Shown in pieces: positions 3,584-58,012 of a stretch of 64,000 bases of DNA. Positions within the stretch are counted from its first letter, which is position 1. Each line of letters opens with the position of its first letter. The notes beneath the pieces are model-generated. The model had not been told where the DNA came from. It did not search any database and was given only the letters and a program-made list of their open reading frames with translations. The position numbers and the translations under genes were made by a program. Origin of the DNA: Rhytidiadelphus loreus (lineage: Eukaryota > Streptophyta > Bryopsida > Hypnales > Hylocomiaceae); assembly GCA_947034895.1 (NCBI GenBank), contig OX344765.1, forward strand, positions 24,371,001 through 24,435,000, given 5' to 3'.

Positions 3584-3586
3584 TAA

Positions 3587-3984
3587 GAGCATCCTCACCA
3601 GTGTCTTTCCTTTCCCTACCTCTGTCAAGATGAAGGGGAGCACATATGGGGATAGGGAAGAGAAGTTCCCAATTGTAGTTCCCTAAATTTTTAACTTATT
3701 GCTAAATAGAGGTAGGGAGAAGTCAAAAGGGAACTATAGAAATAGTAACAAGGCCAAATGAATAGTACTTCCACGAATCAATGAAGCACAACTCATGTTG
3801 GAAAGGTGGAAAGTGGTTTAGGGATTACTCCACTTGAGTTCCCTATCCATCATTCTATTTGGGAAATTTGGACCCTTCCTCCCTAAATTTTTAGGGATAG
3901 GGAATGTTGGTGGAGGAGTTTTCTTCCCTATCCGGATGAAAATCATTCAGATAGGGATTGGGAAGTCACTGGTGGGGATGCTTT
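3587..3984. mobile_element. MITE with GAGCATCC ends, copy 3
   Basis: This is a direct repeat of most of copy 1 (2,590-2,987). The shared stretch includes the STILFGKFGPFLPKFLGIG-encoding segment, which is a chance frame. It ends in GGTGGGGATGC. The array of three adjacent copies suggests either insertion of relatives into each other or a tandem duplication. Confidence 0.65.
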
Positions 3985-4207
3985 CAAGTGGAGTAATCCC
4001 TAAACCACTTTTCACCTTTCCAACATGAATTGTGATTCATTGATTTGAGGGAGTATTATTCATTTGACCTTGTTATTATTTCTATAGTTCCCTTTTGACT
4101 TCTTTTTACCTCTATTTAGCAATAAGTGGAAAATTTACGAAACTAGTGGGAGCTTGTCTTCTCTACCCCATCTATGCTACCCCATCTATGCTACCCCATC
4201 TATGCTT
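3985..4207. repeat. Inverted partial copy of the neighbouring MITE plus a 14-bp tandem repeat
   Basis: Bases 3,985-4,160 are an inverted copy of about 3,650-3,840: the two segments share, in opposite orientation, GTGGAGTAATCCCTAAACCA and the following stretch. At 4,163-4,204 the unit CTACCCCATCTATG occurs three times without change. Confidence 0.65.
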
Positions 4208-27650: not shown

Positions 27651-28216
27651 GTGATAGAATTCTAGAGTTTCTCTTCTCTCACTCTCCACTTCACCCTTGT
27701 TTTTGGTTTTCTCTTGAATGTTTTGAACAATACAATTTTGTTACATTTTATTCAATGTTTCACCACATTTTTGTACATTTCACTTTTAGATCTTTAGATC
27801 TATTGCAACATGTTGAATCATACTATGCATCATATTAGATCCAAACAATTTAGATAGGCCAAATTCAAGTTCAATATTCTAGCCTCAAAAAAATTCGATT
27901 CTCTCCTTACAAGGATCGGCAATGTCATGCAAGGGTGAGTTACTGTTTCTCATTGTTCCACATGTACTCAAATTTGTTCATCAGCTCCACATCTAATCCT
28001 ACCATCCCTGTTATAGATTCCATAGGGCGCGGCTTCCTTGGGTTCGCATCCCCCACATCCTCGAATTAGTGGCCAAATGCTTGATGGACCGAATCGATAA
28101 CCCATGAAACGGTGAACAGTATGATACTCAAATCAATTTTTCCTTTCGTCTCCTCCATGTCGTAACAGCTGCCCATATCTCATTCTGTAAACCCAGCCTA
28201 ATCCCGGAGAACTGAC

Positions 28217-29284
28217 ATGCCAACGTTGAATTATGATGATGCAATCACAATGCGTACACTACTAGCAGTGTTGCTGCTCCTCCTTACTTCCTTAACAACA
28301 ACAACAACAGGATCAGCCCAAGGCCCTGGGAGCTATGTTGAATCTGGGGCGCCGATAGTGATCCGCAGCAATGCCTCGTTGCCCATCGAGATCACATGCC
28401 ACCATGTCCTCTCCGAATTAGACCCCGAAGTCCCAACCGGTGCACGATCCCCTCGCAGCACGGTGAAGCATGGCGACCAGTGGAGCATCAACTTCCCGCC
28501 CGGCGTGGAGGATCCGCTCTACTGCACCTTCCGCAGCGGCGTGCGCAAATGGAACTGCGACGAGCGCTGGCTCATCAGAGACGCCTGCGTGTGGGAAAAT
28601 TCCTGGACCATCGTGCGCCCGGGCCATGCCACCATCAACCCCCAGTCCAACCCCGACTGTCCGCGCTGCGAGTCACGTAACAGCATCGGGAAGATCATCT
28701 GCGTCTGGACGATCCAAGACGACGGGATATACGTTCAAGAATGGGACGCGGAGAAGAAAGAGGACGTACCAACCCTAAAGCACGCCTGGCGAGAAGACAG
28801 CCCGGCGTTTTACGATCCGACGAGCCCGTTCCGATTCTCCGTCGCGAACACCTTCAACCACACGGTGAAAATTCAGTGCGACGTGGTGAGTGAAGCGATT
28901 TTCCTCGAAGCAAGTCCGGGAGAAGGACCAAACCCTAAGTGGGAGTATGAAATCGACCCTGTCATGGACGCGGAAACGACTTATTTCCCTTGGACTTGCG
29001 ATTTTGAGGTCCTCGGGACGGAATTGCGACGAGGAGGAGTGGGGATTTGGAGCCCGCAACCAGAAGTGAATACGTGGATTCGCACGCCGGATTGCATTGA
29101 TTGCGCGTGGAGGTTGGACACGGCAGGACTGTGGCTTGACGACCGATCGTGCTACATCGACCAGCCCGTGTGGATCAGAGAACATGGATGGGACTCGATT
29201 CTAAATGCATCCGCCGCAGGAGACATGGATTGGAATCCATTCTACTATCCTCTCAAGAAATCCTCGCACAGTCATTTCGTTTGA
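28217..29284 (+). CDS. Secreted protein with two S1/SPH (self-incompatibility-like) domains
   Basis: This single-exon gene encodes 355 residues, or 344 from the second ATG at 28,250. The second start puts a typical signal peptide first (MRTLLAVLLLLLTSL, cleavage near TGSAQG) and is my preferred start. Two similar halves follow, about residues 40-150 and 205-300. Each has the pattern of plant S-protein homologues: a beta-strand IVIRSNASLPIEITCHHV (second half FRFSVANTFNHTVKIQCDV), a GDQWSINFP-like stretch and a YCTF or WTCDF strand. Cysteines are numerous and a site for N-glycosylation is present in each half. S1/SPH proteins are secreted plant ligands; poppy S-proteins act in pollen rejection, most others have no known role. 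The tandem arrangement and long inter-domain segment are unusual. GC content is well above the flanks. Confidence 0.65.
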   Translation: MPTLNYDDAITMRTLLAVLLLLLTSLTTTTTGSAQGPGSYVESGAPIVIRSNASLPIEITCHHVLSELDPEVPTGARSPRSTVKHGDQWSINFPPGVEDPLYCTFRSGVRKWNCDERWLIRDACVWENSWTIVRPGHATINPQSNPDCPRCESRNSIGKIICVWTIQDDGIYVQEWDAEKKEDVPTLKHAWREDSPAFYDPTSPFRFSVANTFNHTVKIQCDVVSEAIFLEASPGEGPNPKWEYEIDPVMDAETTYFPWTCDFEVLGTELRRGGVGIWSPQPEVNTWIRTPDCIDCAWRLDTAGLWLDDRSCYIDQPVWIREHGWDSILNASAAGDMDWNPFYYPLKKSSHSHFV

Positions 29285-33644: not shown

Positions 33645-35790
33645 GACGAATTCAATTGAAACCGCATGCCTCGCATTATTGGCCAGACTGCCAGAGTGAG
33701 CATGGCTTACAATTCAAATCCTTTCGAATGAAATGTTTATTAGAGTCACTCGGAGTGCGTACACATGCAACAAGTCAAGAACTGGTAAAGATTTCAGCTT
33801 TCACAAATAATTATCAGAGACAAAAATAATTAAACTACTCCGGCGCCATGGCGCCATTAGCTGTACGTTATTACGACGAAGTAAGTGTTTCTGCACGTTG
33901 AAAACTGCAGCTACTACGAACTCGAACACAACCAACGTCGTCCAAGCGATCCAAACTCTTCTTATTCCGCTGCTTGACATTGCAAGTGAGGCCCTTGATG
34001 GATCATTCGAAAACATCGATGAAGAACTTCTGGCCAGAAAGGCAATGATCGGCATCGCCGCTGGTGAAGTAAAGCGTGTGGAAACTGTACGTGGCAAGCA
34101 CACAACATTGCGGATTGATTATGAAAATTAATATAATGACTTGCATGCATGTCATATATGTGTTCATTTCTAAAAACAAATGATTTCATGTAGTATTGAG
34201 TTGTTGTCATTATTTAATAAGAAGGTCAATTGACTAGCCTACATGTAAAGTCACTCTATATCCAGCCTATATTAATTTGCTTGTGATCACGAAGGAAAAA
34301 TTTACACAAAATATTACATTACTTGGTTCATTTTATGATAACCTTGTCATTAGGGTGCTAACCTCGGTATTAGGGTTGGTTGACAGTATATAACGCGGTC
34401 CGCTCCCGTCTCTAAGATATAATTCCACTAATTTCGGCCCGGAGTCCAGCAAACCTGCCTCCACCACCGAAGCTTTACTTCTCCATCTCGTTCTGCACCT
34501 CAAGTTTTAGGAACTCCAGGCACCAGCCACACCGCAGCGCTGTCGGTGAAGGATCCTCCTGAAGCAGCTTCTCCAAACACCCTAGGTACGTAATTCTTGG
34601 CTGCTGCAACTTCAGACAATCTGACCTTGTTAGTGGCAGAGTACTGGCAGCTCAGACGTACAATCAATTAAGCTCTTTGCTTCTCAAATTCTGAGGAATT
34701 GATGTACGTACGTGGCCCTGTGATCCAGATAATTAATTGATTAAAACAGCCTCGATGGCAGGATTTCGCTCCATATCCACTCAGGATGGTCGGAACAGGG
34801 ATTGGGATTTGGACGCGACCCCAATTTTTTCCAGAATTGGGCACACCGAAATTTTCATGTCCACACTATAGCCGAACTCGGTACACATCGTCGATCGACA
34901 CTCCTCTTCATAATCGATCAGCTTGCAATATAACAGGGAGAATATCTCTGGTTTCCAGATCTACTGCCATTCCCGGTTAACAGATTAGTCAACATGGAAA
35001 TTTGTGCCACTGCTTTCATGTTTGCCGCTTTTCCCTGATCGCTGTTCCCATTGCCAAATCATCTGGGAAACTTCTGATATTCCTGTAAGGGAAACAATGA
35101 CAGATAATCTACCTAAGATATTAAACATTTACTTATTCTAGTAAGACGATTGTGATCTGAGCGAGGTGGGTGGTTTTGTGCAGAGTTTCGATGGGCCTCC
35201 CCAGACGGCGTGCTGCAGGTGGATTTCGCCGCCTTCCAAGCTTGCAACACGCGTGGCGCCATCAAGGCCTGGTTCGCGGTTCGCGAATCCCGACTGAGGG
35301 CAGACGAGCATGGTGTTCAATTCCCACTGCGTGACTACATGTCGAACTTGCTTTAATTGTGACAAATTCAATGGAATTAAGTTGCGTGCCTCACAGTATT
35401 GACCAGAGTGATCGGTCGAGCAGGCTTACAAATCCTTCCGAATGAAATGTTTTATTATTAGAGTCGATCTGAGTGCATACACGATTAACAAGCTAGTCAA
35501 CAATTAACTGAAGGTACTGATTTCAGTTTTCACATATCAGAAAGTAACTCAACTAACTCAACTACTCAGATTGGGCGCCATGGCGCTAGTATAATTACGA
35601 CGAAGTAGTTGGAAACTGCAGCCACTACGAACTCGAACACAACATCGTCCAAGCGATCCAGACTCTTCTTCGTTACTAAGTCCACTGCTTCACATTGCGA
35701 GTGAGGCACTCGATCGATTTATCATTCGAAAACGTTGATGAAGAACTTCTCGCCATCAGCGCAATGACTGGCATCGCCGCTGATGAAGTA
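33645..35790. repeat. Direct duplication of phytocyanin 3' flanks
   Basis: About 445 bases at 33,645-34,089 are repeated at 35,345-35,790 in the same orientation. Shared landmarks are the GGCGCCATGGCGC palindrome (33,841 and 35,574), CTGCAGCYACTACGAACTCG and GATCATTCGAAAAC-type coding ends of exon 2. It shows that the second gene and the broken copy arose by tandem duplication. Confidence 0.8.
34003..35339. pseudogene. Phytocyanin copy broken by a local inversion
   Basis: The 3' part of exon 2 lies on the minus strand at 34,089-34,003 (FHTLYFTSGDADHC, then GQKFFIDVFE and TGA). The 5' part of exon 2 lies on the plus strand at 35,184-35,339 after a good acceptor TTTTGTGCAG (EFRWASPDGVLQVDFAAFQA, ending LRDY). 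Both parts align with consecutive pieces of the intact gene at 35,722-36,245 and stop at the same point, the Asp-Tyr codons before the strand that leads to the metal-site His. Inverting 34,090-35,340 would place them next to each other. Exon 1 was not found inside the inverted segment, so the copy is dead whatever the orientation. There is also a small indel in the plus-strand part. Confidence 0.75.
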
Positions 35791-36245
35791 CACCGTCTGG
35801 GACTTGTAGTCGCGCAGGGGGAACACCATGCTCGTCACCTCTCCGCCGGGATTCGCCAACCACGCCTTGATCGGGGCAGCCGTGTTGCAAGCTTGGAAGG
35901 CGGCGAAATCCACCTGCAGCACGCTGTCTGTGGCGATCCATCGAAACTCTGCATGCAGAAAACCACGCTCATCGTCTTAATCATTTACTGGAACTACGTC
36001 GTAGCAAGGTTGATTAGTGGTTACTTTTAGCTAGGCCAGGGTTCAGTTGGTGTACCGAGAGAGTCGGTGGTGTAATAGGGGGCGTTGCTGTGCTCCCAAT
36101 CCTGATAGAAATTGGGTTCGTGCAAGGGGGTCAGCTGCCATCCCACTGACCCTCCCACCACGTAGTTCGCGGCCATCGAGCCCTGCACAAGAGCCATCGT
36201 CACCGCCAGGACGACGGCCAAAGCGGCGGCCCCGGATCTTGCCAT
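35722..36245 (-). CDS. Phytocyanin, early-nodulin-like (second gene of cluster), two exons
   Basis: Exon 1 is 36245-36056 and exon 2 is 35948-35722, giving 138 residues. Exon 1 has exactly the length of its neighbour's and the intron is again in phase 1, so the two are paralogues. The signal peptide is MARSGAAALAVVLAVTMALV, followed by NYVVGGSVGW, FYQDWEHSNAPY, DSLEFRW, ACNT, FISGDASHC and GEKFFINV. The first copper His is absent (IATDSVLQV) and the axial position is Glu, so copper binding is unlikely. No GPI tail. A probable 5'-UTR intron runs from about 36,771 to 36,276 (GTAAGC ... ACGCAG), placing the promoter near 36,940. That promoter region lies inside the inverted repeat. Confidence 0.85.
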
Positions 36246-40804: not shown

Positions 40805-42551
40805 CTCAAATGCTTTTTACCTCATTATTTGAAAATTCAAAATTTAAAAACCATTTGAAAGAAAAAATTAAAAAAATGGCCAAATATTAGACCTTGAGCC
40901 CCTCAAAGACTAAAAAACACAATGTATCCTCTTCAAATGATCAATGACAAGTTCTTTGTAGGGTGAAAAAATCTCAATATTTTGTAAATTAGGAACTCAT
41001 AGAGTAAAAAGTTGACATACTTGTTGTATTTTTTTATTTTCAAAATTTCAATGTGAGAAGTATTTAAATATTATTTAGGAAATATAATCTAATAGAAATA
41101 AAAAGCAAACCAATTGTTTTTTCAATGAAAAGAATAGTAGGGCTGGAAAAAAAACATTTTTTGGGATAGTATTAGTCTTAATTCATCACAAATAAATTGG
41201 ATTTTGAGGATTTTTTTCAAATTTTTATTTTTAGCAATTTTAGAAATACAAGATTGAATCTATGTGATTCTGAATACAAAATATTTAGAGTGATTCCAAA
41301 TTTTTTGAAGATGCTACCAAAAATATGTTAATAATATCAATTATTAAATTCAAAAAATTGACATATATATAAATTTTTAAGGGGTCCAATTTCATTAGTT
41401 TTGGTTTCAATTCGAAAATACATACAAATTTGAGAGAGTTTTTTTATTTCTCATCATTTTTAATTAAAAAATTAAAAAAATTGCCTATTATTTCACTTAA
41501 AGATTTTGGAAGGGTAAAAAAGCATTATTCATCTTGCTATCGTTATTCTTCCCCCAAAGCTATGTTTTTTGCTTATAAAGTTCATCATTTAAATTGTTAT
41601 AATCTAAAAATCCAACAATCATATTTAATACACTTAATTCTATGCATACTATAGTAGACAAACAATTAGTCTTCATCTTTGTATGGTTAAAATTAAAATT
41701 TCAAGCCCATCGTGATCCAAAAAAATATCAAAATAAGACAATTCATTGAAAACCTTCACTATCAAAAAGTTGTTGGAGCCTCGAGGGGTAAGAAGAGTGT
41801 ACTCAAGGAAGATCAAACAGAGAATAATTCTCTAAGTATAAAAATTGAAAAAGTGCAAAATCTCAAGAAAATAGGTATTTTCACATATTCATTTGTCAAA
41901 ATTAGATAATTAAAATTTGAAAAACAAAATATTTTTTTCCATTTAGAACAACTTTGTGGAGATTTTCATTCACCAAAAAAAACATCAAAATTTTTTTTTT
42001 CATATTTGAAAATGTATGTTGAAAGATGCTCGCTTTGCAAACATCTATACAACATACAATGGATTTTTTTGAGAATTCCATTTCCTATAGCTAAAATTCT
42101 ATTAGAAAAAAAATCTTTAATTTCTAAATTATTTTCAGCTCTAAATTTTTTAAGAGAAAAAGGTATTTCATAGTTCTTGCAAGTCGCAACTAGGAATTTG
42201 CACTGCCAATGAGGACTGAGTGGAGGTTTCAAGATTGTGAATTTGGCTTTTTGAGATTTTCATTTGAGGATCCTTTACTTTAAGAACACAAAAAGAAGAG
42301 CCATTGTGCCCTCTATAAGGTTTCATAGTTTAGTTTTACCTTTGTCAACTTTTGGCTAATAAAACAAGTTTGACCAAAAAGGTTGTTATTTGGGATAATT
42401 GAGAACTTCAGAAACTTTTCAATACTAAAGGCGTATCACTAAGTAACAAATTTCTGAGGTCAAAATCATTCATTGAAAACCTTTTTTAGAAGGTTTGAAC
42501 AAATTTAGAATTTTTGTTTTTATTTTTATCAACCCACCTATAAGGCCCACC
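40805..42551. other. AT-rich spacer between left arm and the large element
   Basis: I see no gene or defined repeat here. Short frames up to about 90 codons are Lys/Phe/Ile-rich and reflect base composition. Confidence 0.45.
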
Positions 42552-42579
42552 TAACCCATATTTAACTAATTATGGACAA
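42552..42579 (+). repeat. Left terminal inverted repeat of the large element
   Basis: 28 bases beginning TAACCCATATTTAACTAATT, perfectly inverse to 56,332-56,359. Just inside, TATGGACAAATCCATAG resembles a second TATGGACAA copy found at the right end. Confidence 0.85.
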
Positions 42580-43112
42580 ATCCATAGTCCAGAATTCAAT
42601 CAGCTGCCCGCCGATAAAGTGGAATTCAATGATTTATGTGCAACAATCATTTTCCAGAATAGCCCGCAGTGTATACGAAACGTAAAATAACATGATATAT
42701 TGAGAATGACAAATTACATAGCTGATGACCACAAGGCGTGGCACAGTGTCGGATGCCAGCCGATAGTCCACATGAACTAGCTAAGATGAATGATTCGACT
42801 ATCAGAGCAGGGTAAGACAACCTCCATGCTGCTGAAAGCGCAAGCCACATTACATTTGCCTCACACTAACTAGATCAGCTATAGAGGAATCTACGAGGAG
42901 TATCAGTTGGCAGCCGATATCTCAGCGAACGTGATGTCGACCCCGAAAGTAGGATGTGAAAGTAAGGAAGGCGTTGTTGACGATCCATTTGATTTTGGAG
43001 GTACAATTGATGAAGGCAATAAAGTTGATGACGGCGATGAAGGTATATACTGTGTACCTCAGCGGACGATAGCAGTGTATTGGCTGGCAGCCCATATATC
43101 CTAAAGAAGTCT

Positions 43113-43763
43113 CTACCAGAATATCCCATCCCAATTCGGATGCCCGTACTTCATGGCCTGTGCCACTTTATAGTGTAATTGTCCCGGTCTTTTGGTGACT
43201 TTGACATATTCCGAAACTGAATCATGCTCGTACATGGGATATATGAATGGAATGATGTCCGTTGAAATATTTGGAATAACTCTATTAGCATTTGGGAAGT
43301 TGAGATGCCCCTGAAATGGCAATGGAATATAGCACGCGGTATCCGGTGTTCTCCGTAGTGAAATCGGGCAGACGTCAACCATGAGCACTTGGTCAGATGA
43401 ACAAATTTCCTTGGACGGTCCCTTTACAAGCAGTGTTGATATCATTTTGTAGCACCAAGGAAAATTCTGCCTATCTACACAGTATTCTCTCCCATATACA
43501 AATGATAGCTTTTGAATGACATCTTTTGGAAGCAAGTGAGCAAGCAACAGCCGCAGTTCATGCATTGGCATTTTCGACCAAATCCCGACATGGAACTTTT
43601 CAAACAACGTAGAAAACATTCCAACGAGCCCTGGACGTCTAACGATGTTTCGGTGAGGGTCCCACTTATCCACCTCGATATTTGGGTCGACAAAACAAAG
43701 CAATCCCGTGACGCAGAGCACCACACACTTTTTGAATGTATGGGGTTGCCCATTGGTGGACTC
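43113..43763 (-). pseudogene. FCP1/NIF-type HAD phosphatase-like domain, copy 2
   Basis: The exon begins after the acceptor CTGTTCAG at 43,764 and runs about 215 codons. It shows the FCP1-homology order: a hydrophobic strand (VVLCVTGLLCFVDP), RRPGLVGMFSTLFEKFHVGIWS, a LLP..VIQKLSFVYGREYC segment and VLMVDVCPISLRR. In active family members the first strand carries the nucleophile as DxD or DVNG and the later motif is DDSP; here these read CVTG and DVCP. It therefore looks inactive. The frame ends at TAG, which could also be part of a donor site (CTG/GTAGAG). Palindromes follow at 43,078, 42,901 and 42,747. No first exon with ATG was found, so it may be a 5'-truncated gene or a further exon of the upstream unit. 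Confidence 0.6.
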
Positions 43764-44520
43764 CTGAACAGAACAGAAATGTGATGACTCAAGATTATGT
43801 GGTAATTACAAGGGAGCTGAGAACCGGCATGCAAGGTATTGGCTGGCGGCCGATACGCAGGGTTGTCGATAAATGATAAAGTAGTAAGCAATGATTCACC
43901 CCGAAATCTAGGCACGAGAAGTGAGTATGAGTGTGCGAGTTTGTAAAAGAAAAGATGGCCATGCCCAGCCATATATGGCAAAGCGCGCTTTTGCTCAGGA
44001 AGCAATCAAACGATTCCTTAAAGAGTGAAAGGGTAAAGCAGAGAACTGTAAATAAGTGTTGTAGAAGACCAGATGCAATCGATGAGTCTCCACTAAACAA
44101 GCCTTGCTATAGTTAATGCTACAGTCCCGTCAGAGTCCCAAGCTAGAAGCATTTGCGGACCGTCTAGGAGACTGAGTCATTACATGCAGCCCAGTCAATT
44201 TAGTGGAGATTCAGCGACTACATCCAAGAATTCCATAACTATTGATTACAGTGATCGTGCTAGAACATTCAAACTCTCGAAGGAAACATTTGAATGCTTC
44301 GAGAGCGAAACGACTATCCGTCTTATATAGCTGGACAGGCGTCGGTAAATGCCTTTATTACAAGTAATTGTTTAGCAAAAAAATCCATACATAAGTTTTT
44401 AAACATATGGTACAAGTCCTACGCTATATGTACAAGACATTTATACAGTTTCTAATAAAAGTGTCGGCTGGCAGCCGATACAGTAAGCGCCCTCCAGCGA
44501 CAGGTTGATTAGCATCCGCA

Positions 44521-45359
44521 TCATTTCGTTCCCATGGCTAGTAGCTCTTCCTCTGAGTAGGGCACCTCAAATCCCTTCTTACAGTCTGGCGTGACTTCAA
44601 TGCACAAATTATATTGAGTCGACCCCGGCATGCATTGCGGAAGACCGACTTCTGAATTCCGCTCACAATACTCGGGAACCGAGAGCCCAGAAGACAGCAA
44701 CCCCTCCAGAAACGGGATCATCGTTTGCTGGAAGAAGGGGAGTTTGGGAGCCTTCAATTTCGCCTCCGAGTACATTGTACAAGGAGGTGGATGAACCGCA
44801 CTATATGGCAAATTCAGAATGTTCCTATAAGGAATATGATCGATGATCAATGAATTCTGAATGGAGGCACCACTGTTGAACAGTGTCGGGGAGGCCAAGA
44901 GACGTGCAAGACGCTTCAAGAAAATTGGTCTACTAGGATTCGCCGGATTCCAGTAGGTGCTAAGGTCACATGACTCTTGCCCGAAGGCAAGAAAGCTATC
45001 TCCAATCTCTAGCACCTTCCATTTAATATTGTCTAGACGATGCTTGAGAGTGTTCAACACCAAATCCAACCAATAGACAATCGTGATGTCCTGACTCATA
45101 CAAAATCTCAGAAATTATTGAAGTCCCGGACGATCTCTAACCTGAGACCTTTGATGCGAACCCTTTCCCTTCAAAATGAGCGGCTCGAAGAACATTATGG
45201 TTCCCTGGACCTCAATGAAAAGTAACAATTTCGAAGACGCTACCTGTGGAGCATCAGAACTTGAATCGTGTGCTCTGTAGTCGGTAGCCGGTTTGTCACA
45301 CTCGTCTCCTCCTTGAGACACGGTCTTCTCTGAGGACTCAGATGGTGGAGCATGAGAAT
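44521..45359 (-). pseudogene. FCP1/NIF-type HAD phosphatase-like domain, copy 1
   Basis: The exon starts after the acceptor CTCATTGCAG at 45,360. A Ser/Asp-rich lead is followed by LLLFIEVQGTIMFFEP, RPGLQ-stop-FLRFC, VYWLDLVLNTLKHRLD, FGQESCDLSTYWNP, IFLKRLARLL and IIDHIPYRNILN. That order is the FCP1-homology fold of HAD-family phosphatases. The usual nucleophile Asp is Glu (FIEVQGT) and the DDSP motif reads DHIP. An in-frame TAA (45,117-45,115) would be CAA by one C-to-T change. The C-terminal part ends EELLAMGTK and TGA. It may belong to the same transcript as the ParB-like unit upstream, since an intron with a palindrome (45,434) separates them. Confidence 0.6.
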
Positions 45360-45588
45360 CTGCAATGAGAGATGACGTACATAATGCCTTAGATGCAATA
45401 CAATGAGTGGATTCGAACAACAAAATTCTAATGTATCGGCTGGCAGCCGACACACTACATAAATAGTCTATTCTGCATAGCTGAAGGCACACAGTGACAA
45501 GTCCCAAAGAACAAGTCAGAGCCAGGTAGCACTAAGTTAAATGACCTACTCTAGTTACTCCTCAAATATTTCGGCACATATTTTTGAC

Positions 45589-48500
45589 CTACGACGAACC
45601 TCTAGACCGCGTTGGCATAGATGCTCCCTGATGAACGGGAGACAGCGGTTCGTTGGGGAAGTCGTGCTCTGGCATGTTTTCCAAAGGCATGACACTGTCT
45701 ACCTCCACCTCCGTGCGTTTACGTTTCCCCTTGGACCGGCCAGTGCGACGAGAGTCCAGAGAAGGCGAAGTCCCATCCGGTCTGTTTCCTTTGCTCCTAC
45801 CCCGTCGCGGCCCGCCAACGGACGCATCTGGAAGTGTTGGCTGGCCGCCGACATCAACGGTAGACTTTGGCGGGTTCTCGACGGCTCCTGTTGGTTTCGA
45901 CCCCTAGTGTTCTGATTGAGCTCTTAGGATCTCCTCAGATGGCGGGGCATTATGTAAATCAACGACCATGGCGTCCGAAGTGCCATCATCGCCGACTCCA
46001 CCATCTCCAGTTTCTCCAACATCGCATGGTACAGTGTCACAAATTGCTTGGCAACTATGAGCAAGATCAATGGGCGACACGATATTGCTATTTGTTGGTG
46101 CCGACTCCTGTTGAGCTGTACAAGTGGGCGATGAAGGTTCGATTGGTGTAGGATCCCGACTTCGGCTAGCTCGCGGCTTGCGAAGCAGTGCTTGCACGAT
46201 GGAGTCTTCACTGGACGAGTCGCCGCGCAAGACAATCGTTCGTGATGTGGTTGGTTGATTAATTCGACGGCGGACCCTCGAGGGTGGATCATCAGAGCCG
46301 ACAATAATCTGTAGTGGACGCATGGATTCTGAATCAGTGGAGGGACGCGGAGTGAACGAAGGAGTCGAATGAGCCCCCTGCCCCGATCCTCCAATAGTGC
46401 GAACCTCCAGTAATGCCGGGTCTCGCGGAGGAGCAAAGAAATGAGCAGCGGAAACAAGGTTCATTCCCTTTACGCGCTCATTAGCTTTCGCTACGCCATC
46501 CTCCTCAAGAACAAACTCTAGAACGGGGCAACCATTCCTCTGAAAACATAGAACACTGCAGTCAGATAGGATTTGTATCGGCTGCTAGCCGACACAAATG
46601 GATGAATACGAAGAAAACATTAAACTCCCAGTGTACTACAGCGCATGACTTACCAGAGCGATCTCGGTAACGTTTCCACCTCCCCAAATATTGATGACGG
46701 TGGCATCCTTGGATTTGAGGGTCGGCTTCATGAATAACTCCAGGAGCCCATGGCCAACGCCGCAGAATCCTCCGTTCCAGTCGACCTTGCCATCGACATC
46801 TTGGTTGTACCATTCAAGGGGCTTCTGGATTCCTGTGAACTTTTTGAATACCCCTTGCATATTGCCTCTATCCTCCGGCTTGAGGTAGGTCAGAGATAGT
46901 GTGACCATTGGCTTCGCCTCTAGCTCGGCCTTGAGAAAGCCCCTGCGAGAAGATGGTTGGTAGTACACCGTCTGGAAATACCAGGACGACATAGATGAAT
47001 AGGAGGCGGCCGCCATGGAATCCCTGAATCGAGAGTTGCCTATGAAGAGCATTGGCAGAGGAATGTAGGAGTCGGAATCATTGTCCAGTTCCGAGGGAGC
47101 CTTTGCCACAATTGCTAATTCCAAGAAATTTTCTTTATTCACATGCAAAGGTTCTCCACTCTCGTTGTACCCAAATAGCACGAAGAACTTCCGGTCCCCA
47201 GGTTGGAGGCCCAAAGACTCAGAGCCGCCCTAAACTACTTCTATCACGCTGGATATAATCTCTCCAAGGCGGCACTCGTACTTGAGGTCTGACCCACTCC
47301 CCCGGATCGGATCCATAGCAACAGTGGCGTAGCTCTTCAACGTTGTGTAGAATACCCCAGGCGCCTTGCCATCCGTAGACTTATCCGTCGTAGGATGCAT
47401 GGGGTTGGCTCGCCTGTTCAACCAGTTGCTGCCGTCTGTGAATTTCTTGACGTCCTTCCACACATTCCGAACGACAGCGGCAGAATAGCCTTCCGCGTTT
47501 GCAAGTTCTTGCCACGCCTCGTCAGAATACGGGACCCAAGTAGCATCCTTACAAGGCAGCGGGTACTTCTTCTTGAGCCACATGATCTCGTTCATGACGA
47601 CCCTGTCAAGCTTCTTATCCCAGCACCAATCGAAGAGTGTCACCTTTCCTGATGATCAGGCCTTTGCACTATTCTTGATGCTGACGCGGGGGTTGAGGAT
47701 GTCCCCCACAAGTTCACAGAGGTCGGCATCGCGGAGGCCGAGAGTAGGCGTCAAGTCCGTCTTGGTGATATATGTCAGTGGTTTCTGATTAACGATGGAA
47801 TTCGGAATAGTCCCATCGTCGCCCACAAGCTCACCGTTCTCCCAAGCATCGAACACCTCAGTCCACAGTACCCATGTCCTCTCCTTAACAAAGATGAGCG
47901 ACAGCTTTGACGAGACCTTCTCGTCGACGAAGTGTGCCATGACATTCAACTTTGCTGCCTGCATAATTTAGTATTTAATGTGTGAGAACATGTCAAAATT
48001 GTATCGGCCGGCAGCCGATAGAAAGGATACTTCCATATGAACATTATGAATGTCGCCCTGTAATGCCTGTATCGGCCGACAGCCGACACAATTGCAATTA
48101 AAGAACGACTATATAATTAAATTAAATTCCTATTGATGAAGCAGAGTTTATGATGAATACCTCAAATGCGGCCGTTGGCTTGCCTCCTCCTCGATGTGGC
48201 TCCGGGCAACCCGCCTTCACCCATGCCGCCCTCCCCATCTCCGCGCAGGATCGGAACGTCTCCTTTGCCACCTTCTCTGCGATGTTCAGATTAAGAGCAT
48301 TGGATACCCGGACAAGCGTGTTTGGGTCTCTACTAAATACCGGAATGACCTCAAACTCCAAGAGATCAGCTTTGGCCGGCGAGCCGTCAAGAAACTGTTC
48401 GGCTAGTTCTCGACAGGCGGTGACAATATGTTGGCCCCCAATGATATACCAGTTGACATTTGGTACCTGCCACCACGGCATCGTTATACCACCGATGACA

Positions 48501-49944
48501 ACAGTGGCACCCTCCACCGGGCATTGGTCCATCACCGCGTCCAGTCCTTTGTCTGTGGGTAACGAAGCTCGTTTCAATGGAATGCCGTGTATTTCGGACT
48601 TCTTCCTGATAGACCCATAGCCCTTGTACATGGTTTTAACCTGAAATGACGGAAATCTAGGTAGTGAGAATCACCACTTCAGGGTGTCGGTTGGCAGCTG
48701 ACACTATTGGTAGGAGGACATTAAATGGAATATGGGGTAGTGGCATAGAAAACAAATGGAATACCTGACCAAGGCGATCCTTCGCAATCTTTCGGTACTT
48801 CAACTCGTCTGGTGCAATGTGAAGCTTGTCCGATGGAATGACTCCAGATAGTCGCCGCTTTTGGTATGGGAATGCGTGAAGGAGTCCCGTCTCCAGCGCC
48901 TGGTAGATGGCGTTCACCTCGTTATCCTTTGTCTTCGTCGTCAGGTGATTCCCGCAAACCAGTGCTTCGTCCAGTGTGAGAATAATCACCCGATTCGGAT
49001 CGTCCTTTCCCTTTGCCTTCCTCCTGGGTTTGCTAGGTGACCCGGCCTCCTATTCAGTAGATTCATTTGCCGGATCCTGTGATCTTGTCACTTGCTTCCT
49101 CGACGCTGGCACCTTCTTCTTCCCTTTCGCCATGTCCTTAGTGATTAGGGCATTCTGTTGATCCCTCTCTGCCTTCATACATTCCCATCCCATAACAAGG
49201 TCTTCACTATCGGAAGGGCTGCTCCCCTCAAATGTCATTCCCCTCGCCATGGATTTCTCTCCACATGCTTCCTCCGTGCACTTGTCGACAGGCAGCTGCA
49301 CCGCAAAATAGTCCGCGATGCCATCCGGATTTCCGATTGGGAGTAGGTAGATCATCACCTAGACATCTCCACCAACTGCCATAACTTCCATCACGTTGCC
49401 GTGGCCTGGCATCATGTTACCCTTCAGTTTGAAGGAGCGCGCAATCTCCACTAGCCGGTCCGGGTAATCCCTCCAACACAAGCCCCACTCTTGGATGGCC
49501 GGATTTGCTATCCAAGTCACGCGTGGGGGAAAACCGTCGGCCATTATACTTGAGTTCGGGATCTGCTCGCTAAGAAGTTTGGCCATCAGGGTCGGTTTCC
49601 TGCGCACAAAAGTCCAAAACATTCAGCACAACACATACATAGGTATCGGCTGCCAGCCGACAGTTTCAAACGGAATTCATTACACATCGAGACAAATGTG
49701 TCGGCCGCCAGCCGATACTACCTTGAAGTTCCTAATTCATACTGCCTAACTACAATTGCTGCCAACCATTGTATATGGGGAACAGGCTCCAGACTACAGC
49801 TGCCCTTACTGTCGGCTGCCAGCCGATAACAAGAGCAATGTGTTCGTTCAATTCAAATAACATAGTATACATTCAAACCGGCATATCATCAAAGCATAAA
49901 CAATTGTATCGGCGGCCAGCCGATACAATGTACGGATCCATACC
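45589..49944 (-). pseudogene. ParB/Srx-like plus methyltransferase-like multi-exon gene, decayed
   Basis: Visible exons are (up to) 49944, 49599-48765, 48640-48161, 47958-46654 and 46539 to about 45589, with good GT-AG borders and continuous phase. A first exon may reach 50,244. Exon 3 (48640-48161) has NWYIIGGQHIVTACRELAE and RVSNALNLNIAEK, resembling the ParB/sulfiredoxin GxxR-type box. At the end of exon 4 and start of exon 5 comes HGLLELFMKP, INIWGGGNVTEIAL and a CPVLEF..A..R segment, in the order of motif X/I/II of permuted N4/N6-type DNA methyltransferases, but without the DPPY motif that I can see. A Ser/Pro-rich tail follows. In-frame stops: TAG at 49361, 49052, 47232, 45906 and 45591, and TGA at 47658 (first base, minus strand). 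All are one C-to-T step from Gln or Arg. Phage ParB-methylase fusions share this layout; the link is inference. Confidence 0.5.
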
Positions 49945-50338
49945 TGTCACTTTCAGTGGCGGAGGACGCCATCGCCGTTGGCTGTTGTTGTTTATCGGCG
50001 GGCCTTCGACACCTGTCGGTTGAAGATAAATCTCCTTGTCTCGAGACGCCACAACGAAGTATCGGCTGCCCACACTGAAGTATCGGCTACGCACTAAAAT
50101 CCTTAAGCGGGGCCGCTCCTCCTCAGTCCCTCGATTGCATGTCAGCGACCGGCCGGTGAGAGAGCGAGAGCAAGAGCAAAAGTGGTGGAGAAAAAATGAG
50201 GAGAAATGAGAGTGGCCAGGGGAGTATACCCCCCCCTCCCCCACTCAAGTGTCGGCTGCCAACGTCGGTGCAATCATGACAATCTTTTTCCATTCATCTA
50301 TGGATTTCATCCATTCCTCGCATTCCATCCAAAATCCA

Positions 50339-50506
50339 GTACACCACTTCCTCCCAAGGACATCAGAGTGACGATCACTCATTGCTCGGAGATGCGTACG
50401 TTCCCATTGTCGATCCTCAAGCGTACACCACATCCTCCCAAGGACATCAAAGTGACGAACACTCATTCCAAGGACATGCGTACGTTTCCAATGGCGATCC
50501 TCAAGT
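50339..50506. repeat. 84-bp tandem repeat in the divergent intergenic region
   Basis: Two units, 50,339-50,422 and 50,423-50,506, each begin GTACACCAC and contain CCTCCCAAGGACATCA, AGTGACGA and GCGTACGTT. A third unit starts at 50,507 and stops after a few bases. It lies between the two oppositely transcribed gene groups, where promoters are expected. Confidence 0.75.
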
Positions 50507-51238
50507 GTACACACCTCTCTCATTTGTAATCACAAAAACTTCAACCTCCTCCGCATTCAAATTTTGAGCGCCAAATTGCGTCTCGCACCTCCTCACTAAG
50601 GTCCAATTCTTAGAGGGTAACCCTCTTTCAGTTTCATTCCCTCCTTGCAGACATAGAGTCACAAGTCACACTGTCCCGGGAGCATGAGGGATGAGGATCA
50701 GGATCTGAGCATGAGTCATAGGTGAACTAGAAGAACTGAATACATCCTTGCACGCGCTTGCAGTAGAATGCATTGGATTGCGCATCTATAGGTTAGGACA
50801 CACTCACATTAAATGCAGTAGATGTGGATCCAGTCTGTGATGTTTTGGAGCTCCCTATTTTGCACATCCAATTCAATTACATGTCTCAAGTTCGCATGGA
50901 TCGGATATGTTTTCATATTAGTGCAAACTTCCTCGATCGCTTCATTGTATTTGAAATCTATCTCCCTAATTGATTTACAACTTTGTAATGTGAATGAAGG
51001 TCAGGGTATTGTCCGTACAATCCGTCTTGTCGACTGCCCGCCCATAAGCTAGGTCAATGTCGGCTACCAGCCGATACAAACATCATTAGTGGGAAGGAGG
51101 GAACTAGAAGTCACTGTGTTTGATAGGGTGTCTTTCATTTTGTTCTTTGACGTATCGGCTGCCAACCGATACAGACTTCCGAGGACTTTGAGCAAGTGCA
51201 TATTCAACATTGTATGAGATCCGTGCCAAGTTTGTATC

Positions 51239-54200
51239 ATGAGTGGATCTGTTGGCATTGGTTTGGATGCAAATCCGATTGAAGCGTTCACACGGAATGG
51301 AAGCTCTGGGAGATTGACGCTGCGGAAGGGAGTAGTCGTTGCTCTTACCCTCGAAGGACTCTATTACGCGGGGCGGGCCGTTGTAGAGAGGGTAGTGAAC
51401 CGCAAACCCTACCTTGTGCATGTTCATGTACTTGATGTTCCAGATAACCTTGACATGAATATTCCGTTTCCCGAGGGGAACTTGGTCTTCCTTCGACACT
51501 GCGCGGGGAAGTCAATCGTGTGGGAGGCAAGTAATGTTTATCCCTACGCAGAGGCAAAAGGATCTAGTTGCGGTGGTGTCGGCCGGCAGCCGATACAACT
51601 GAACATGGATGAAAAAACCATACAACAATTCCTGTCTCTCACTATCAATATGGAAGTCGCTCTTCTGCTGACTGTGGCACCGACCTGCAGTATGTAGGTG
51701 TTGGCATAATTGTTGAATGCTCTCCGAAGGGGTTCTGGAAAGGCTTCCGAGTTCCACACAGTTTCTTCCTAGTTGTTAGACTTCTATATGTTGTCGATGA
51801 TTTCAAGGATTACAATGCCTACTGCGAGATTCCACATTTTATGATACTGAAGGACTGTGTTGGATACAGAATACTTTGGTTTGGTTACAAGGTCAGGCCT
51901 ATCAATCCATCTAATGTGTCTCCCACTCCTGTCGGCGGACAACCGACAGGACCGGGAGTAATTCATTTGACGCGACCTTCTCTGGATGGTAACTGCGAAA
52001 GTGGAGGGAGCTCTTCCGATGTCCTAGCCGAATTTCGAGAGGTGGCACAACAACGGATTCCTGCCAATGCATCAGACGAAGATGAACGGGATGATAGGCG
52101 GTACTCATCCGACGATGACAGCCGCGGGTCTGCTGACAATCTCCCCAATGTTCATGGTTTCAGTACCTCTGGTGATGGTGCATCTAACCCTAGTGCTAGT
52201 GATAGCATCGTTGATGCGGACGTGTTTATTGGGACTAGTGGAAGTGGAGACCTCAATTATACCTCTGATCCTCCATCTAGTCAACCGGGTCTTCCATTCT
52301 CTGATAGACCACTTTGGAGAAATCAATATTGTGAACTTTTGAATGACGACTTCTCATTCTTCGGTAGAGCAATGATCCAGGTCTGTCTTCCCGACGAGGC
52401 ATGCAACAACGGCGTCCTCGGAGATTCAGATGTGGGTGTCATGTTCGTATCTGACCATGAGGCACTACAAATGACTACCATGCGCTGGAGCTTGGAGGCT
52501 GTCCCACACAAGATTAGAAGGGGGCAGGCTACTCTCTGAAATTGTCACCTTATACTCCGAGGCTGCTGAGTTGAACAAGTCTGATGACGGAGGATTGCAG
52601 GGAGTGCCCAAGAATCCATACCGGTCCGTGCGTCGAAGAGTGCTGCCCAAGGATCGCGGGGGTTTATCCAAACTGCAAATGAAAACATCAGACCTTGACA
52701 TACGAAAGGTCAGCTCACAAAACTGCTACAAGCACAAATGTTGCTAGACGTTTCCCTGGGAGGATACAAGAACACTACGTCAAAAGTTCTATGCTTGCAC
52801 ATTCGAAGCAAGAAGGGAGATGGCATACACAGTTCAGAGTCAACTTCATGCATGTGTTATTCCAGGGAAGAAGTTTGTTACTCTCGCAAATGTAGACGTC
52901 TGCGAAAACGCCTGGTATATTATACACGGGGTCTCCAAGTCGGCATACCATGTCTACAAGGCCGTGGTCGTTGGAGGATCTGTCAGCGGGTCTCATAGAA
53001 ACGCGGGGACACAGTGACCACGTTCGCACACTATTCAGGCTCAAGCAACTTTCACGACAATTATCAATGAGAATGCTGACCAGATGCCAAATGAGTTCAG
53101 ACTGGTGGGAAATAATCGCGTGGATAATCTCAAGGTTGTCCCCTCTGCAATGAACTGGGATCACATGCGCGAGTAGGTCAATTATGTAAGTATCCATTAT
53201 CCTCCACTCCTCTGCATTCCGTTGTAGCTTCTGTCGGCTGCCAGCCGACACAATACTAGGAGTCCGAATTGGCGTCCTCCAGAATCTCTCCACCTTGCGG
53301 GTCAGTGATTGTTCAATTCCCTCTTTAATTTCCGGGCAATCCCGATCTGTCAGCTGTCAGCCGATACATATGATTCTCTCGTCATGGAATCCCTTGCAAT
53401 TGGGTCTGTCTTGTAGGTCAATGGAGTCTGCAATATGAAACCGGTCTCACAGTCTGCCATCAGCCGCCTCCGAAAGGCTCATTTCAAAAACGTTGAGGTT
53501 AAGGTGGTAGGAAGCAATTTCTCCAAATGCACAGAATGTGACTTTCTGGTCGAGTTCATTGCAAAGTATCCCAGAGGTTGTGATGAGTGGCAGGCCCTAG
53601 TAGATGACAGAGAACGACATCTCAATTACCAACGCGCTTGCAGAAATGTGTATGGTGGATGGAGATCACAATCTATTCAGAATCCATCATAGTTCCTCTG
53701 CATTATTCACGACAAGATGGACACCACAAAGACCGCGATTCCGAGGATGCAGCGCATCACCAAGGCCACCGTCGGGCTGGGGTAGATACCAATATCGTGT
53801 ACTGGCATGCTCACGTATGGCCATGGCGATGGCGCATATGCTCATTACTCCACATCACTGTGGCCTGGGGATTCCAATTTCACTATATCGTCGCTATGTA
53901 GGGTTCTTCGAGCTCTGGAGCTGCTGCCTGTTCGGGAATCCAAGATCCTCTTCTCCACTCCTCCTCAAAACACCTTTTTTGAAGCTCTACTTCACGGAAA
54001 ATCAAGATGCAACTCATCCATTCCTCCGGCCTCTGATAAAATCACAAACACTCCAAGACCAGGACGGCCGCATGTTCCACTCCCAAGGAAGTTGTTCTTG
54101 CAACTCGACAATTCCGCAAAGGACAATAAGAATTGGTTCCTCATGGCATTTTGCTCATTACTCACTGCCAGGCGCATCTTTAAGGAAGTAACTGTTGGCT

Positions 54201-55432
54201 TCCTTATTGTTGGTCATACACACGAAGACATTGACGCGTACTTCAGTTATCTGTCCAAGCTAATTAAGAGGAAGAACACTTACGTTCTTGCAGATCTAAT
54301 GAAGGCGTTCATGGATTCGCAGAAGACTGTAGCCTTCATCTCGGAGTTCGTTCAGGAGGTGGCGGACTTCAAATCCTACCTAAAGGGATTCCATCATGAT
54401 GGGGTCAACAAGATCGTGGAACTCGGGGATAAGCATCTCTTCAAATTCTACGTAGAAGAGTCGGGAAATGATCGAGGATGGCCGGTCATGAGGTACAAGA
54501 AAAGGACAACGGATTCTTCGTGGCTTCCTCCTGGACCACCAGTGAAAATGTGGACAGTTGACGCTTCAAGGGGACCGGCACTTCCACAGGGGGATCCTCG
54601 ACCTGTTCCGTTCAAGGCACTCTGGGGTAACGTTGACATAAATCCCAAGAAACGGAACGTAGACAAAGAAGTGGCCAGGGCAAGCGAATGCAATGAGAAA
54701 CAGTGCTTCATCAAAAATGGAATAGCGAAGTACATCGAATTCTAGAAATTGGGAATGGCTAGAAACAAGCGATACGCAGAGGAAATAGCAAGTTGTGTGT
54801 CATACTGGGAAAGAATTCTGTCGGAGATTAGTAAGCCGCTACCCGCAACACCCACATTGCTACAGGAAGGATTCTAGCCGATGTCTGACTGGACAAGAGA
54901 TCACGGATCCGCATGTCGCGATGAGGGGGCGGATCCTAATAATCCGACTGACACGACTCCAAAGGACGACTTGGAACCTTCTCTATACTGCGGGCCTGCG
55001 AAGGATAGGCCAAGGTTGACCTTCAATCCATTCAGGGATGTTCTGCTTGGAGATTTTGTTCTTTGCCGACCATGTCACAACAATTATCTGCCGGTTTGGC
55101 TGGGGCGGGTACTTGAGTGTGTGGACATGACTCCTGGGCCATCGTATGGAAACTTCAAGCTAGAATGGTGGACTCCAATGAAAGCCAAGAGGGAAGGAAA
55201 GGCCGTTGTGGCGAGGGAGTGTTGGACCCGTAGATGGCATAAGGAACTCTGTCTGCCGCAGGTAGTTCATGTCAACATTGTCTTGTACTCGCACCAAATG
55301 CCCTCGCATGCGAAGAATGGACCGCCAACATCTCATGTTATTCCGGAAGCCTCGGTTATTGCTGCAATTGCTAATCTGGAGGCTGCCGGGGAAGCTATTG
55401 ACAAAGATGTTGATGAAGAGGGAGATGACTAA
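51239..55432 (+). pseudogene. DUF7869-like (transposase-like) protein gene, three exons, decayed
   Basis: Exon 1 is 51239-51530; exon 2 runs from about 51698 to 53185; exon 3 from 53417 to 55432. The N-terminal 430 residues are unfamiliar and include an acidic Ser-rich stretch. From about 52,700 the order matches the family I know as DUF7869: NCYKHKCC, CENAWYIIHGVSKSA, SKCTECDF, HDKMDTTKTAIPRM, GHGDGAYAHYS, LDNSAKDNKNWF, VGFLIVGHTHEDIDAYFS, and a C-terminal WLGRVL...WWTP segment. The invariant Asp/His-rich blocks suggest a metal-dependent, perhaps nuclease or transposase, core; this is inference. Damage: an extra G in the G-run near 52,520 shifts the frame; TAG at 52745, 53174, 53690, 53783, 54743 and 54875; TGA at 53015. 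All stops are one C-to-T step from Gln or Arg. Introns hold palindromes at 51577, 53232 and 53348. Confidence 0.65.
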
Positions 55433-56331
55433 CGCCACGTCTCTTCTGTGTGCTATCAGCTACCCGCCGATAAACCCCTTATATGTTCGATGAATGCTTT
55501 CCACAGTGTTGCTCGGGTCAGAACCAACAATCGGGAGGTGGTGTCGGCTGCCAGCCGATAGGAGTGACACTGCTCAGTATTGATAGCACCGTTCTGTCAC
55601 TAGGAAAATCTTGTTTTCATGGGCTCTACCCAGATGTCCAATTCACTTCTTCTCATTTTCGGTCAGGAGGGGAGTAGCCTCATGTCTGCAATCTCCTTAT
55701 TCTACGCAATTGCTTTTGCCTTTACTATCGGCTGCCCGCCGACACAAATTGCGCATCTGAATAATGCAAGATTAGCTTTGACATTTTTAGACGTTCTCAT
55801 ATCCAGTCTGCCTCTATTGCTAGAATTGCATAGAATTTGTACATGTCAATTTTGAATTTAAATGAAGCTCCGCTGCAGGGCATTTTGAAAATGTTTCTAT
55901 TCTTTATGCTACCAAATATGCTCACTTCTCATGCTCTAGGATGGGGATTGCACTGTTTACATATGACTACGCACGAGACTCTGGACCCTCTTATCAGCTG
56001 CCAGTTGATACATGTAAAGGGGCTAGAGTTGTCTTGTGTTTGGGATTTGCATAGGAAATGATAGGATTTGTACTGTGGATATGCCTTTCCTGGGGTTCCA
56101 CGGTTATAGGTACCGCTTCTAATATCACAAGGTTGCATTTGTAACTCATTTATTTTAATACTTCTAAGTCCATTAAAATCAAATTGTCTGACATTAATCC
56201 ATTTTGAGGAAACCAATGGAGCAGGATATTAAATGTGTTGGTGGGCCGCCGACACTTTTCCATCGTTGTTTTCAGTTTCTTCACATTTTCGAGGTGATTG
56301 TGCACTATCAATTTGTCCATATTTGGTGTAA

Positions 56332-56359
56332 TTGTCCATAATTAGTTAAATATGGGTTA
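56332..56359 (-). repeat. Right terminal inverted repeat of the large element
   Basis: Perfect inverse of the left terminus. A second motif, ATTTGTCCATAT at 56,311-56,322, repeats part of the terminus as a subterminal site. Confidence 0.85.
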
Positions 56360-58012
56360 CCTATAAGTAAACGCTATAAGTTTAGCAACCTAAAGTAGTT
56401 GGATTTGAGTTGTGCAAAGAGTCACAAAAAGCTATCTTATCTCAAAGGCCTCAAAATAACTGATTTCTACATGTTTTACATAGAAAAAAGGATTAGTATT
56501 ATTTTTGTACTAAAATCTTTCAATTGCATCACTAATAGGGGATTTTTTCATGATCCTTTGATGTGCACCAGAGTTCTAAACTTTAGAATTTTATGTTAGC
56601 AAGTGAAAATTGAAGCAAGTGAGATGTTTTTTCACTATAAGAAATTCACGTTTTGGGCTATGTTTGACCACTAATGCGTAATATCTGATAGAACATGATG
56701 ATGTCAAAAGAAATTTGGCTCAACAAGGTAGATTTTTGTAGATGTTGCCAAGAACATTGGTATATTATTGTAAATCTAAGTTGATGTTATCATTGTTTTA
56801 TTTGACAAGACTGAAAATATGTTGATGTTTTGGAGGATGTCCAAAAGAACTTAAACTGCCACATTAACAAGTAGATCCATTTTGACTATGGATAAGTTAG
56901 TAAAAATTACTATGGTTTACAGTAAAATATTGACCATATGTAAAAAATTTGAGGAAAGGGTAGCCACATGACAATAATGATATACTTTGATAAAAAGGAA
57001 AATGGACGGATGTGTAGTATGGATGAAAAGAGATGGTTTTTATACAAAAAGGGTGGAAGAAAGTGAAACAATCTATATGGGATATGTACAGCAAGAATTG
57101 TGTTCAATGAAAAATGTTTGAAACAACATCTAGATGTTTAAAACAACAAGTCCCTTATTCTAAATGTCTCAAATAACGTCAAGATGTACAATGGTCAAGT
57201 TCCCATATTCTAATTATCCCATATCGTTTGTCTCACCATGGACTTATAGTAAATATAAATATAACCTCCCTATCCTTCATTCTCATTAACTTTTAATGAA
57301 GAAATTCCTTCATTTTGCCATCAAAAATCTTCTTCATGATAGATGGTAAGTTTTCTTTAGTTCTTATTGAATTCAACAATTTTGTTTGTTCATTTATTTT
57401 ATTTTTTCATTTATTTTAAGTAACTTTTTTTTGTTGATCTTGCCTTATGGGTAGGGAATGCACCAATTGATGTCTCAAAAAACATCTAATTTGACATTTA
57501 AAAAATTGAAAACCCAAAATCAAAAACAATTGCCACGTCAAAAATCAAAGAGGTCCAAGTCACAATCCATGTCACTCATGGGATGAATGAAAAAATATCC
57601 TACGTGGCACTACATGCCCATATTATGCTTACGTGGCAATGACTTGTCTGACACATGGCGCATTTTGGAGAGCTTCAAAGACTACATTTTTCGCGAGGTT
57701 AGAGAAAAACCCCTGAAATCTTGCATGTTTCTTGTGATTTTCGCACATTTTTGCTTGTCAATTATAACGAATTTTAGGAGACATCTATGCTGATCACTTA
57801 CCCGTCAAATTGAACATCCTCTCTTATTTTCTAAGACGCCAAAAAAAATCGATTGTCTTATAGTGTTTGATGAATGTTGGTGCATTAAATACTAACATAG
57901 CCTTTCTCTAAGTTCAATTTTTATGAACCAAGGTGAATTTTCAAAGTTTTGAACTCAAGTGTATATTTATGCATTATGCCAAAAATGTTTGTATATGATA
58001 GTTGCAATGTTC
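56360..58012. other. AT-rich spacer between the large element and the right arm
   Basis: No gene is recognised. It differs in sequence from the left spacer (40,805-42,551), so the inverted repeat does not extend into it. Confidence 0.45.

Follow-up and report, generated by a model that had tools for sequence, protein, structure and literature searches.

What kind of mobile DNA carries several genes within 13.8 kb, and why its noncoding parts are strewn with copies of one short palindrome, are the questions raised by a stretch of 64,000 nucleotides from the moss Rhytidiadelphus loreus (assembly GCA_947034895.1, contig OX344765.1, positions 24,371,001 to 24,435,000 of the forward strand; hereafter the window, to which all positions refer unless a contig is named). 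The element was found to be a DNA transposon occupying 42553–56358 of the window. Its palindrome was found to be nearly exclusive to it, conserved in position between the family of the window copy (family A) and a related family (B), and replaced by a different palindrome in a third family (C), a result that goes beyond an earlier note made from the window sequence. The explanation that we favour, with a probability of about 55 %, is that the element is an autonomous plant cut-and-paste transposon of the DDE type, now mostly decayed, and that its palindromes are putative address sites for a protein of its own with an anti-silencing effect.

Element ends, copies and decay

The termini at 42552–42579 and 56332–56359, previously described as perfect 28-bp inverted repeats, are perfect inverted copies of each other, and a search of the window allowing up to three mismatches finds these two and no others (0.00 expected). 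Their length had to be revised: comparison of copies showed that the 28th base is part of a 4-bp target site duplication (TSD), so that the terminal inverted repeat (TIR) proper is 27 bp, AACCCATATTTAACTAATTATGGACAA. All six independent insertions with both ends seen had perfect 4-bp TSDs (ACCT, TGTA, GTAT, TTTT, ATAT and AAGA). The element thus shows the inverted termini and fixed-length TSD at independent insertions that define a class II, cut-and-paste TIR transposon. An initial reading of the flanks alone as a 9-bp TSD with filler was dropped after copies were compared, and a chance repeat was ruled out by shuffles and by the existence of further copies. The contrast noted earlier between a G+C-rich interior and AT-rich flanks was confirmed, with G+C per kb of about 0.45–0.51 inside the element versus 0.24–0.33 in the adjoining kb.

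The genome searched comprised 407 Mb, mostly in five large contigs. A query of the first 149 bases of the element gave 98 candidates, of which 40 were scored; 20 of these 40, counting the window copy, were near complete, with 88–100 % identity. One diverged left end (L029) was rejected, matching over short stretches only. Ten further copies were fetched at 15.5 kb each, of which six show both ends and four only left-hand parts. Two of the six were counted as one insertion on two contigs because their flanks are identical, which, with the window copy, leaves the six independent insertions above. The family B copy measures 18.6 kb including a nested insertion and has an imperfect TSD (GTGA/GTGG, one base off), and the family C copy measures 21.8 kb, with related 27-bp ends and the TSD AAAA. 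The genes form two divergent groups, as had been described from the window, with the minus-strand group at the left and the plus-strand group at the right; the principal ones encode a probable transposase with a DUF7869 domain (plus strand) and a protein that we call the GGQH protein (minus strand). Families A, B and C have the same gene order. The earlier proposal of one TIR-bounded mobile unit with a multi-gene cargo is therefore borne out by the TSDs, the recurring gene order and the existence of other copies that share both the ends and the genes, and its counter-proposal, that the ends occur here only by chance, failed.

An endogenised DNA virus might likewise be large, with several genes and inverted ends. 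In three scans covering 10, 8 and 7 ORFs no viral family exceeded its cut-off, with one sub-threshold match to Phage_DsbA (E 0.025); no relatives of the transposase were confirmed in IMG/VR or GTDB contigs, and the TSDs and copy pattern are transposon-like. The probability of a viral origin is negligible.

Divergence among six aligned copies was 1.6–4.8 %, and changes private to one copy were mostly C>T or G>A. Such changes in exactly one copy affected 16.9 % of CG, 18.1 % of CHG and 5.0 % of CHH positions, a plant-type CG/CHG pattern; methylation in CG and CHG contexts is typical of plants. The window copy has decayed, its reading frames being broken by in-frame stops, and long frames are kept in other copies. 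An unusual genetic code was ruled out as the source of these stops, since the frames are open in other copies and most private changes are C>T, with CG and CHG the commonest contexts.

Two side observations concern other copies. The nested insertion in the family B copy is about 5.3 kb long (L036–L038; G000:C1, approximately 13146690–13151993), and a 9-bp overlap of the flanking matches suggests a target duplication. At 33.52–33.71 Mb of G000:C5 the left end is matched at four places over 84 bp; three of these are spaced by about 65 kb and C-lineage gene matches fall among them, so that a large segmental duplication is probable.

Distribution and conservation of the palindromes

Within the window, 27 A-type palindromes (up to three mismatches) were found inside the element and one weak one in the other 50 kb, against 0.32 expected in the whole window. 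The earlier description of an array with its outermost copies just inside the termini holds for 42600 and, more weakly, for 56238. Approximate exons cover 67 % of the window element, and 24 of the 27 palindromes lie outside them, in the remaining 33 %, leaving three in coding sequence (binomial 2e-9). The three coding palindromes (45837, 51579 and 51932) read V-G-x-Q-P-(I/T) in variable linkers, and family B has VGRQPI or the like at similar places.

Genome-wide, TATCGGCTGSCAGCCGATA gave 834 matches at up to one mismatch and its reversed control none. Among the matches listed, 49 of 50 exact A-type sites had a DUF7869 or GGQH match no more than 12 kb away, and the zone so defined amounts to 0.7 % of contig C1. 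Between one copy each of families A and B, 21 of 23 noncoding palindromes of A were aligned with a palindrome at the same place in B. Identity in these 23 palindromes was 81 % (393/483), compared with 44 % in their flanks (865/1960), 48 % in noncoding DNA outside palindromes and 72 % in coding DNA. Within family A, substitutions other than C>T numbered 13 in 3738 palindrome positions, 258 in 23288 other noncoding positions and 288 in 54443 coding positions.

Two explanations bear directly on this distribution. Small mobile or amplifying repeats (REP/BIME-like) merely accumulating in the element would account for the many copies, their GC-rich palindromic form and some tandem arrays in family C. 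The sharing of 21 positions between A and B and the concentration of exact sites at the element strongly disfavour this explanation, to which we give little credence. Alternatively, the palindromes could mark the element for recognition by the host, as host repressor or recombination sites, and their near confinement to the element and small change between copies would fit. A target of repression should be lost under selection on the element, yet the palindromes are more alike between A and B than the coding DNA is, and a host mark is accordingly a poor prospect, if a slightly better one than accumulating repeats.

Replacement of the palindrome in family C

The family C copy has no A-type sites. 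The 16 kb of it that were retrieved initially contain 26 sites near ATCGGGAGATCTCCCGAT (up to five mismatches) against 0.44 in 100 shuffles, and a pattern differing in the last bases gave 41 C-type sites in 24 kb. Each of the A and B sequences tested contains a single C-type site. Perfect copies of CATCGGGAGATCTCCCGATG are present in another stretch of the C lineage (L040). In the whole genome, the C-type palindrome had 174 matches at up to one mismatch (control, 4), and 34 of 35 exact C-type sites were within 20 kb of DUF7869 or GGQH matches. Of 39 sites in the C copy, three fall in open frames, which cover 38 % of that copy. The A- and C-type palindromes have ATCGG...CCGAT in common and differ in the inner bases.

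In parts of the family C copy (L034 and L035), some of the C-type palindromes are arrayed in tandem at intervals of about 24 and 76 bp, an arrangement also reported for the targets of VANC proteins. A stretch with a decayed copy of a fourth lineage (L041) has a 12-bp tandem repeat over about 350 bp (bases 3930–4300, approximately) just behind the last match of its DUF7869 gene.

Predicted function of the palindromes

Because the motifs hardly occur outside the element, keep their positions in its noncoding DNA and are replaced by others in another lineage, a lineage-specific, element-encoded DNA-binding protein best explains them. The palindromes would then be recognition sites at the DNA level, acting as address labels over introns and intergenic DNA, and there are two candidate readers, the GGQH protein and the transposase protein, the latter through its N-terminal part. 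By coating the noncoding DNA, the reader would most likely keep the element open for transcription or transposition, and the action of each lineage would be limited to its own copies, much as VANC proteins act on VANDAL elements. According to published accounts, the Arabidopsis protein VANC21 binds the motif YAGTATTAY where it occurs in introns and noncoding regions of the VANDAL family to which the protein belongs, and methylation is lost as a result (PMC5735166, PMC10398659). The VANDALs, of the MULE class, resemble the moss element as multi-gene plant DNA transposons whose short motif, in those accounts, is dense in the noncoding DNA of the family, rare elsewhere and different between related families (PMC5735166, PMC10398659). 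The palindromes share this noncoding density and family specificity. The moss motif differs in being a 19–23-bp palindrome, mostly not in tandem in A and B, and the element differs in its 4-bp TSD and in having no match to a MULE-type transposase in Pfam scans of its ORFs.

Several observations weigh against this explanation. Most A and B sites are single palindromes, whereas VANC motifs are reported as same-direction tandem arrays. The conservation between A and B comes from one copy each, and the aligner may pull similar palindromes together. The palindromes of C and of a related copy, C', are only 56 % identical (192/342; flanks 41.5 %, 765/1842), which indicates that sites turn over within the C lineage, and no palindrome array was found in the one decayed copy of the fourth lineage (L041). 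The GGQH protein showed no recognisable domain for DNA binding or chromatin, and single-sequence structure models were poor (mean pLDDT 38 for the transposase and 36 for the GGQH domain). C>T decay at CG and CHG has affected palindromes, other noncoding DNA and coding DNA to about the same extent, and surviving copies therefore show no lasting protection from methylation; since the other changes are rarer in palindromes, the sites were probably under constraint during the active life of the element and are now eroding together with the remainder of it. Finally, the centre base of the palindrome is mostly G to the left and C to the right of a cut at 7 kb chosen after the sites were seen (Fisher 0.0002–0.002, three copies), an orientation that a plain homodimer site does not need. 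This orientation runs about the middle of the element or along transcription.

The oriented centre base, which mostly agrees with transcript direction, would suit palindromes that act as RNA hairpins in introns or untranslated regions, affecting splicing or stability or confusing small-RNA silencing, and every intron placed holds at least one palindrome. The R/Y position, read by eye in the transcript sense, gives A-C mismatches besides G-U pairs, so that RNA base pairing is not kept, and palindromes also lie close to the termini. We regard an RNA function as improbable.

The palindromes might instead be bound by the transposase and help to bring the ends of this long element together or to count copies, a role that multiple subterminal motifs have in other DNA transposons. 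Such sites would be nearly exclusive to the element and change together with the transposase lineage, as observed. Against this, the palindromes are distributed throughout the noncoding DNA, the middle of the element included, instead of gathering near the ends, and a better candidate is the motif TATGGACAA, which, as read by eye, lies at the inner edge of the TIR and in families A and B recurs once, immediately inside the right end. Sites of the transposase are an unlikely reading, though one that merits more weight than RNA hairpins.

Address sites for an element-encoded reader remain our preferred explanation. Few systems are known in which transposons recognise themselves by sequence, and the closest one found was VANC/VANDAL. 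If the explanation is true, the moss element would be a second such system, with a long recognisable palindrome, three related lineages and two palindromes, making the origin and switch of protein–DNA address pairs directly testable.

Gene content and selection

The probable transposase comprises an N-terminal part (T1) and a DUF7869 part (T2), which probably form one spliced gene (Table 1). The earlier label for this protein stood: the T2 piece of the window matched Pfam PF25273 with 141 bits against a cut-off of 26, making it a clear member of a family to which Pfam assigns no function. In copy cp09, the open frames on the plus strand have 642 and 671 residues, and the second contains DUF7869 (E 7.9e-41). 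The motifs IIHDKMD, LQLDNSAKDN and GHxHEDID are invariant when single copies from families A, B and C are compared, and so are D99/D102, D231 and E270 (alignment A1). To judge from the sequences, the D...D...E of these motifs are probably the catalytic residues of a transposase and the DUF7869 protein is probably that enzyme, a role that the position of its gene inside a unit bounded by TIRs and TSDs supports. An uncharacterised domain would thereby gain a likely function.

The domain encoded by exon B of the multi-exon minus-strand gene has an invariant YIIGGQHxxxAxxEL in four sequences. Its former label, ParB/methyltransferase-like, could not be sustained: Pfam, NCBIfam, PHROGs and PDB sequences gave weak, unrelated matches but none to ParB or a methyltransferase. 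As the label reflects a motif resemblance with no library support, the name GGQH protein is used here.

The label FCP1-like applies to two genes rather than the one first reported. ORF F, above the cut-off, and ORF E, below it in family A and above it in family C, belong to or resemble the NIF/FCP1-like HAD phosphatase family (PF03031). What we take to be the catalytic motif of this family, DxDxT, is replaced by VLCVTGLLC in ORF F of the window copy; the catalytic aspartates are missing from ORF F in both A and B, and the F-like ORF of family C, assigned by position and by eye, also lacks the aspartate motif. ORF E of family C keeps DLNG and IDDSP, both lost in A and B.

At least 126 genome matches to DUF7869 were found (125 of 1433 candidates scored), in identity bands of approximately 92–100 %, 80–91 % and 51–64 %, and 149 to the GGQH exon (150 of 630 candidates scored). 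A GGQH match lay head to head upstream of DUF7869 within 20 kb in 85 of 126 cases and within 60 kb in 104, against 0.4 expected within 20 kb under crude random placement. Any other geometry within 20 kb was seen for two DUF7869 matches, at one place. The spacing clusters near 5.5–6.5 kb and 12.5–14 kb, and the gene order recurs in the family C copy at 28–46 % protein identity. Between A and B, dN/dS over five gene parts was in the range 0.04–0.22 (transposase, 0.08; GGQH, 0.044; exon C, 0.106; E, 0.215; F, 0.119), showing that purifying selection acted on the genes of the element.

Table 1. Features of the window element, with positions in the window
Feature	Position	Strand	Remarks
Left TSD, ACCT	42549..42552		4 bp; comparison of copies
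Left TIR	42553..42579	+	27 bp; window matches and copies compared
ORF F, NIF/FCP1-like HAD domain	43113..43805	-	PF03031 25.9 bits, cut-off 21.8, E 9.2e-6; relative in family B
ORF E, second NIF/FCP1-like protein	44521..45370	-	approximate exon, interrupted in window copy; PF03031 15.6 bits in family A, 49.5 bits in family C
Exon D, variable, basic C-terminal part of GGQH protein	45589..46549	-	approximate; copy comparison
Exon C	46650..47961	-	in-frame stops in window copy; open in cp02 and cp09
Exon B, conserved GGQH domain	48155..48652	-	earlier called 'ParB-like'; no supporting library match
Exon A of GGQH protein	48766..49600	-	in-frame stops in window copy
Possible first exon of GGQH gene	49940..50100	-	splice sites by eye; least certain
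T1, probable transposase, N-terminal part	51239..53190	+	frame broken in window copy; open in other copies
T2, DUF7869 part of probable transposase	53417..55432	+	671 aa open in cp02 and cp09, broken in window copy; PF25273 E 4.4e-41; alignment A1
Right TIR	56332..56358	-	27 bp; window matches and copies compared
Right TSD, ACCT	56359..56362		4 bp; comparison of copies
27 dispersed palindromes	42600..56252		consensus ~TRTCGGCTG-S-CAGCCGAYA, up to three mismatches
Palindrome core starts, first part	42600, 42749, 42903, 43080, 43839, 44464, 45436, 45837, 46578, 48004, 48072, 48687, 49646, 49701
Palindrome core starts, second part	49812, 49909, 51030, 51060, 51155, 51579, 51932, 53234, 53350, 55456, 55544, 55728, 55994
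Weaker palindrome	56238		beyond the 27

Relationship to known transposons

A TSD of about 4 bp would fit Sola or Academ. TSD length is linked to superfamily in general (PMC10045372). According to reports on other groups, piggyBac and canonical Kolobok elements target TTAA, non-canonical KolobokP having 3–5-bp TSDs (PMC9587614), Zisupton of the KDZ group has an 8-bp TSD, and the CMCT clade (EnSpm, Chapaev, Plavaka and others) has mostly CA..TG termini and a C(2)C motif between the second D and the last E (PMC12730594). The moss element has varied 4-bp TSDs, none of them TTAA, termini reading AACCC..GGGTT, and at most one C between the assigned D and E (alignment A1), and is thus set apart from the TTAA elements, Zisupton and the CMCT clade by their described marks. 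Fungal DNA transposons (KDZ, Plavaka and others) carry TET/JBP genes presumed to counter methylation-based silencing (PMC12730594). They are alike in combining TIRs, a transposase and extra genes with that supposed effect, and differ in that the moss element has no TET/JBP match and has its own termini.

The earlier statement that the element fits no nameable family still holds at the superfamily level. The open literature, outside which most subscription papers lay, yielded no mention of DUF7869 and, in titles and the openings of abstracts, no ParB-bearing or moss transposon of this kind. We tentatively raise the possibility, at clearly less than even odds, of a separate plant transposon superfamily with a DUF7869 transposase, 4-bp TSDs and FCP1-like pseudo-phosphatases, in which self-addressing would have arisen independently of the VANDALs. 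Each lineage would place a palindrome of its own in almost all of its noncoding DNA and encode the matching reader, and palindrome and reader would change together.

Other features of the window

Outside the element, positions 3–1166 (plus strand) hold an exon of cytoplasmic leucyl-tRNA synthetase, an ordinary nuclear host gene (E 7.2e-74 against solved structures). A GC-rich ORF of 360 aa at 28202–29284 (plus strand) has two similar halves by eye and a weak match, below the cut-off, to the plant self-incompatibility S1 family (PF05938, E 0.017). The interval 2603–4145 contains a direct repeat of 300 bp (94 %) and an inverted one of 162 bp (90 %), which probably represent a further small repeat element, and a 107-bp inverted repeat, 86 % complementary, lies at 35179–35285 and 35847–35953.

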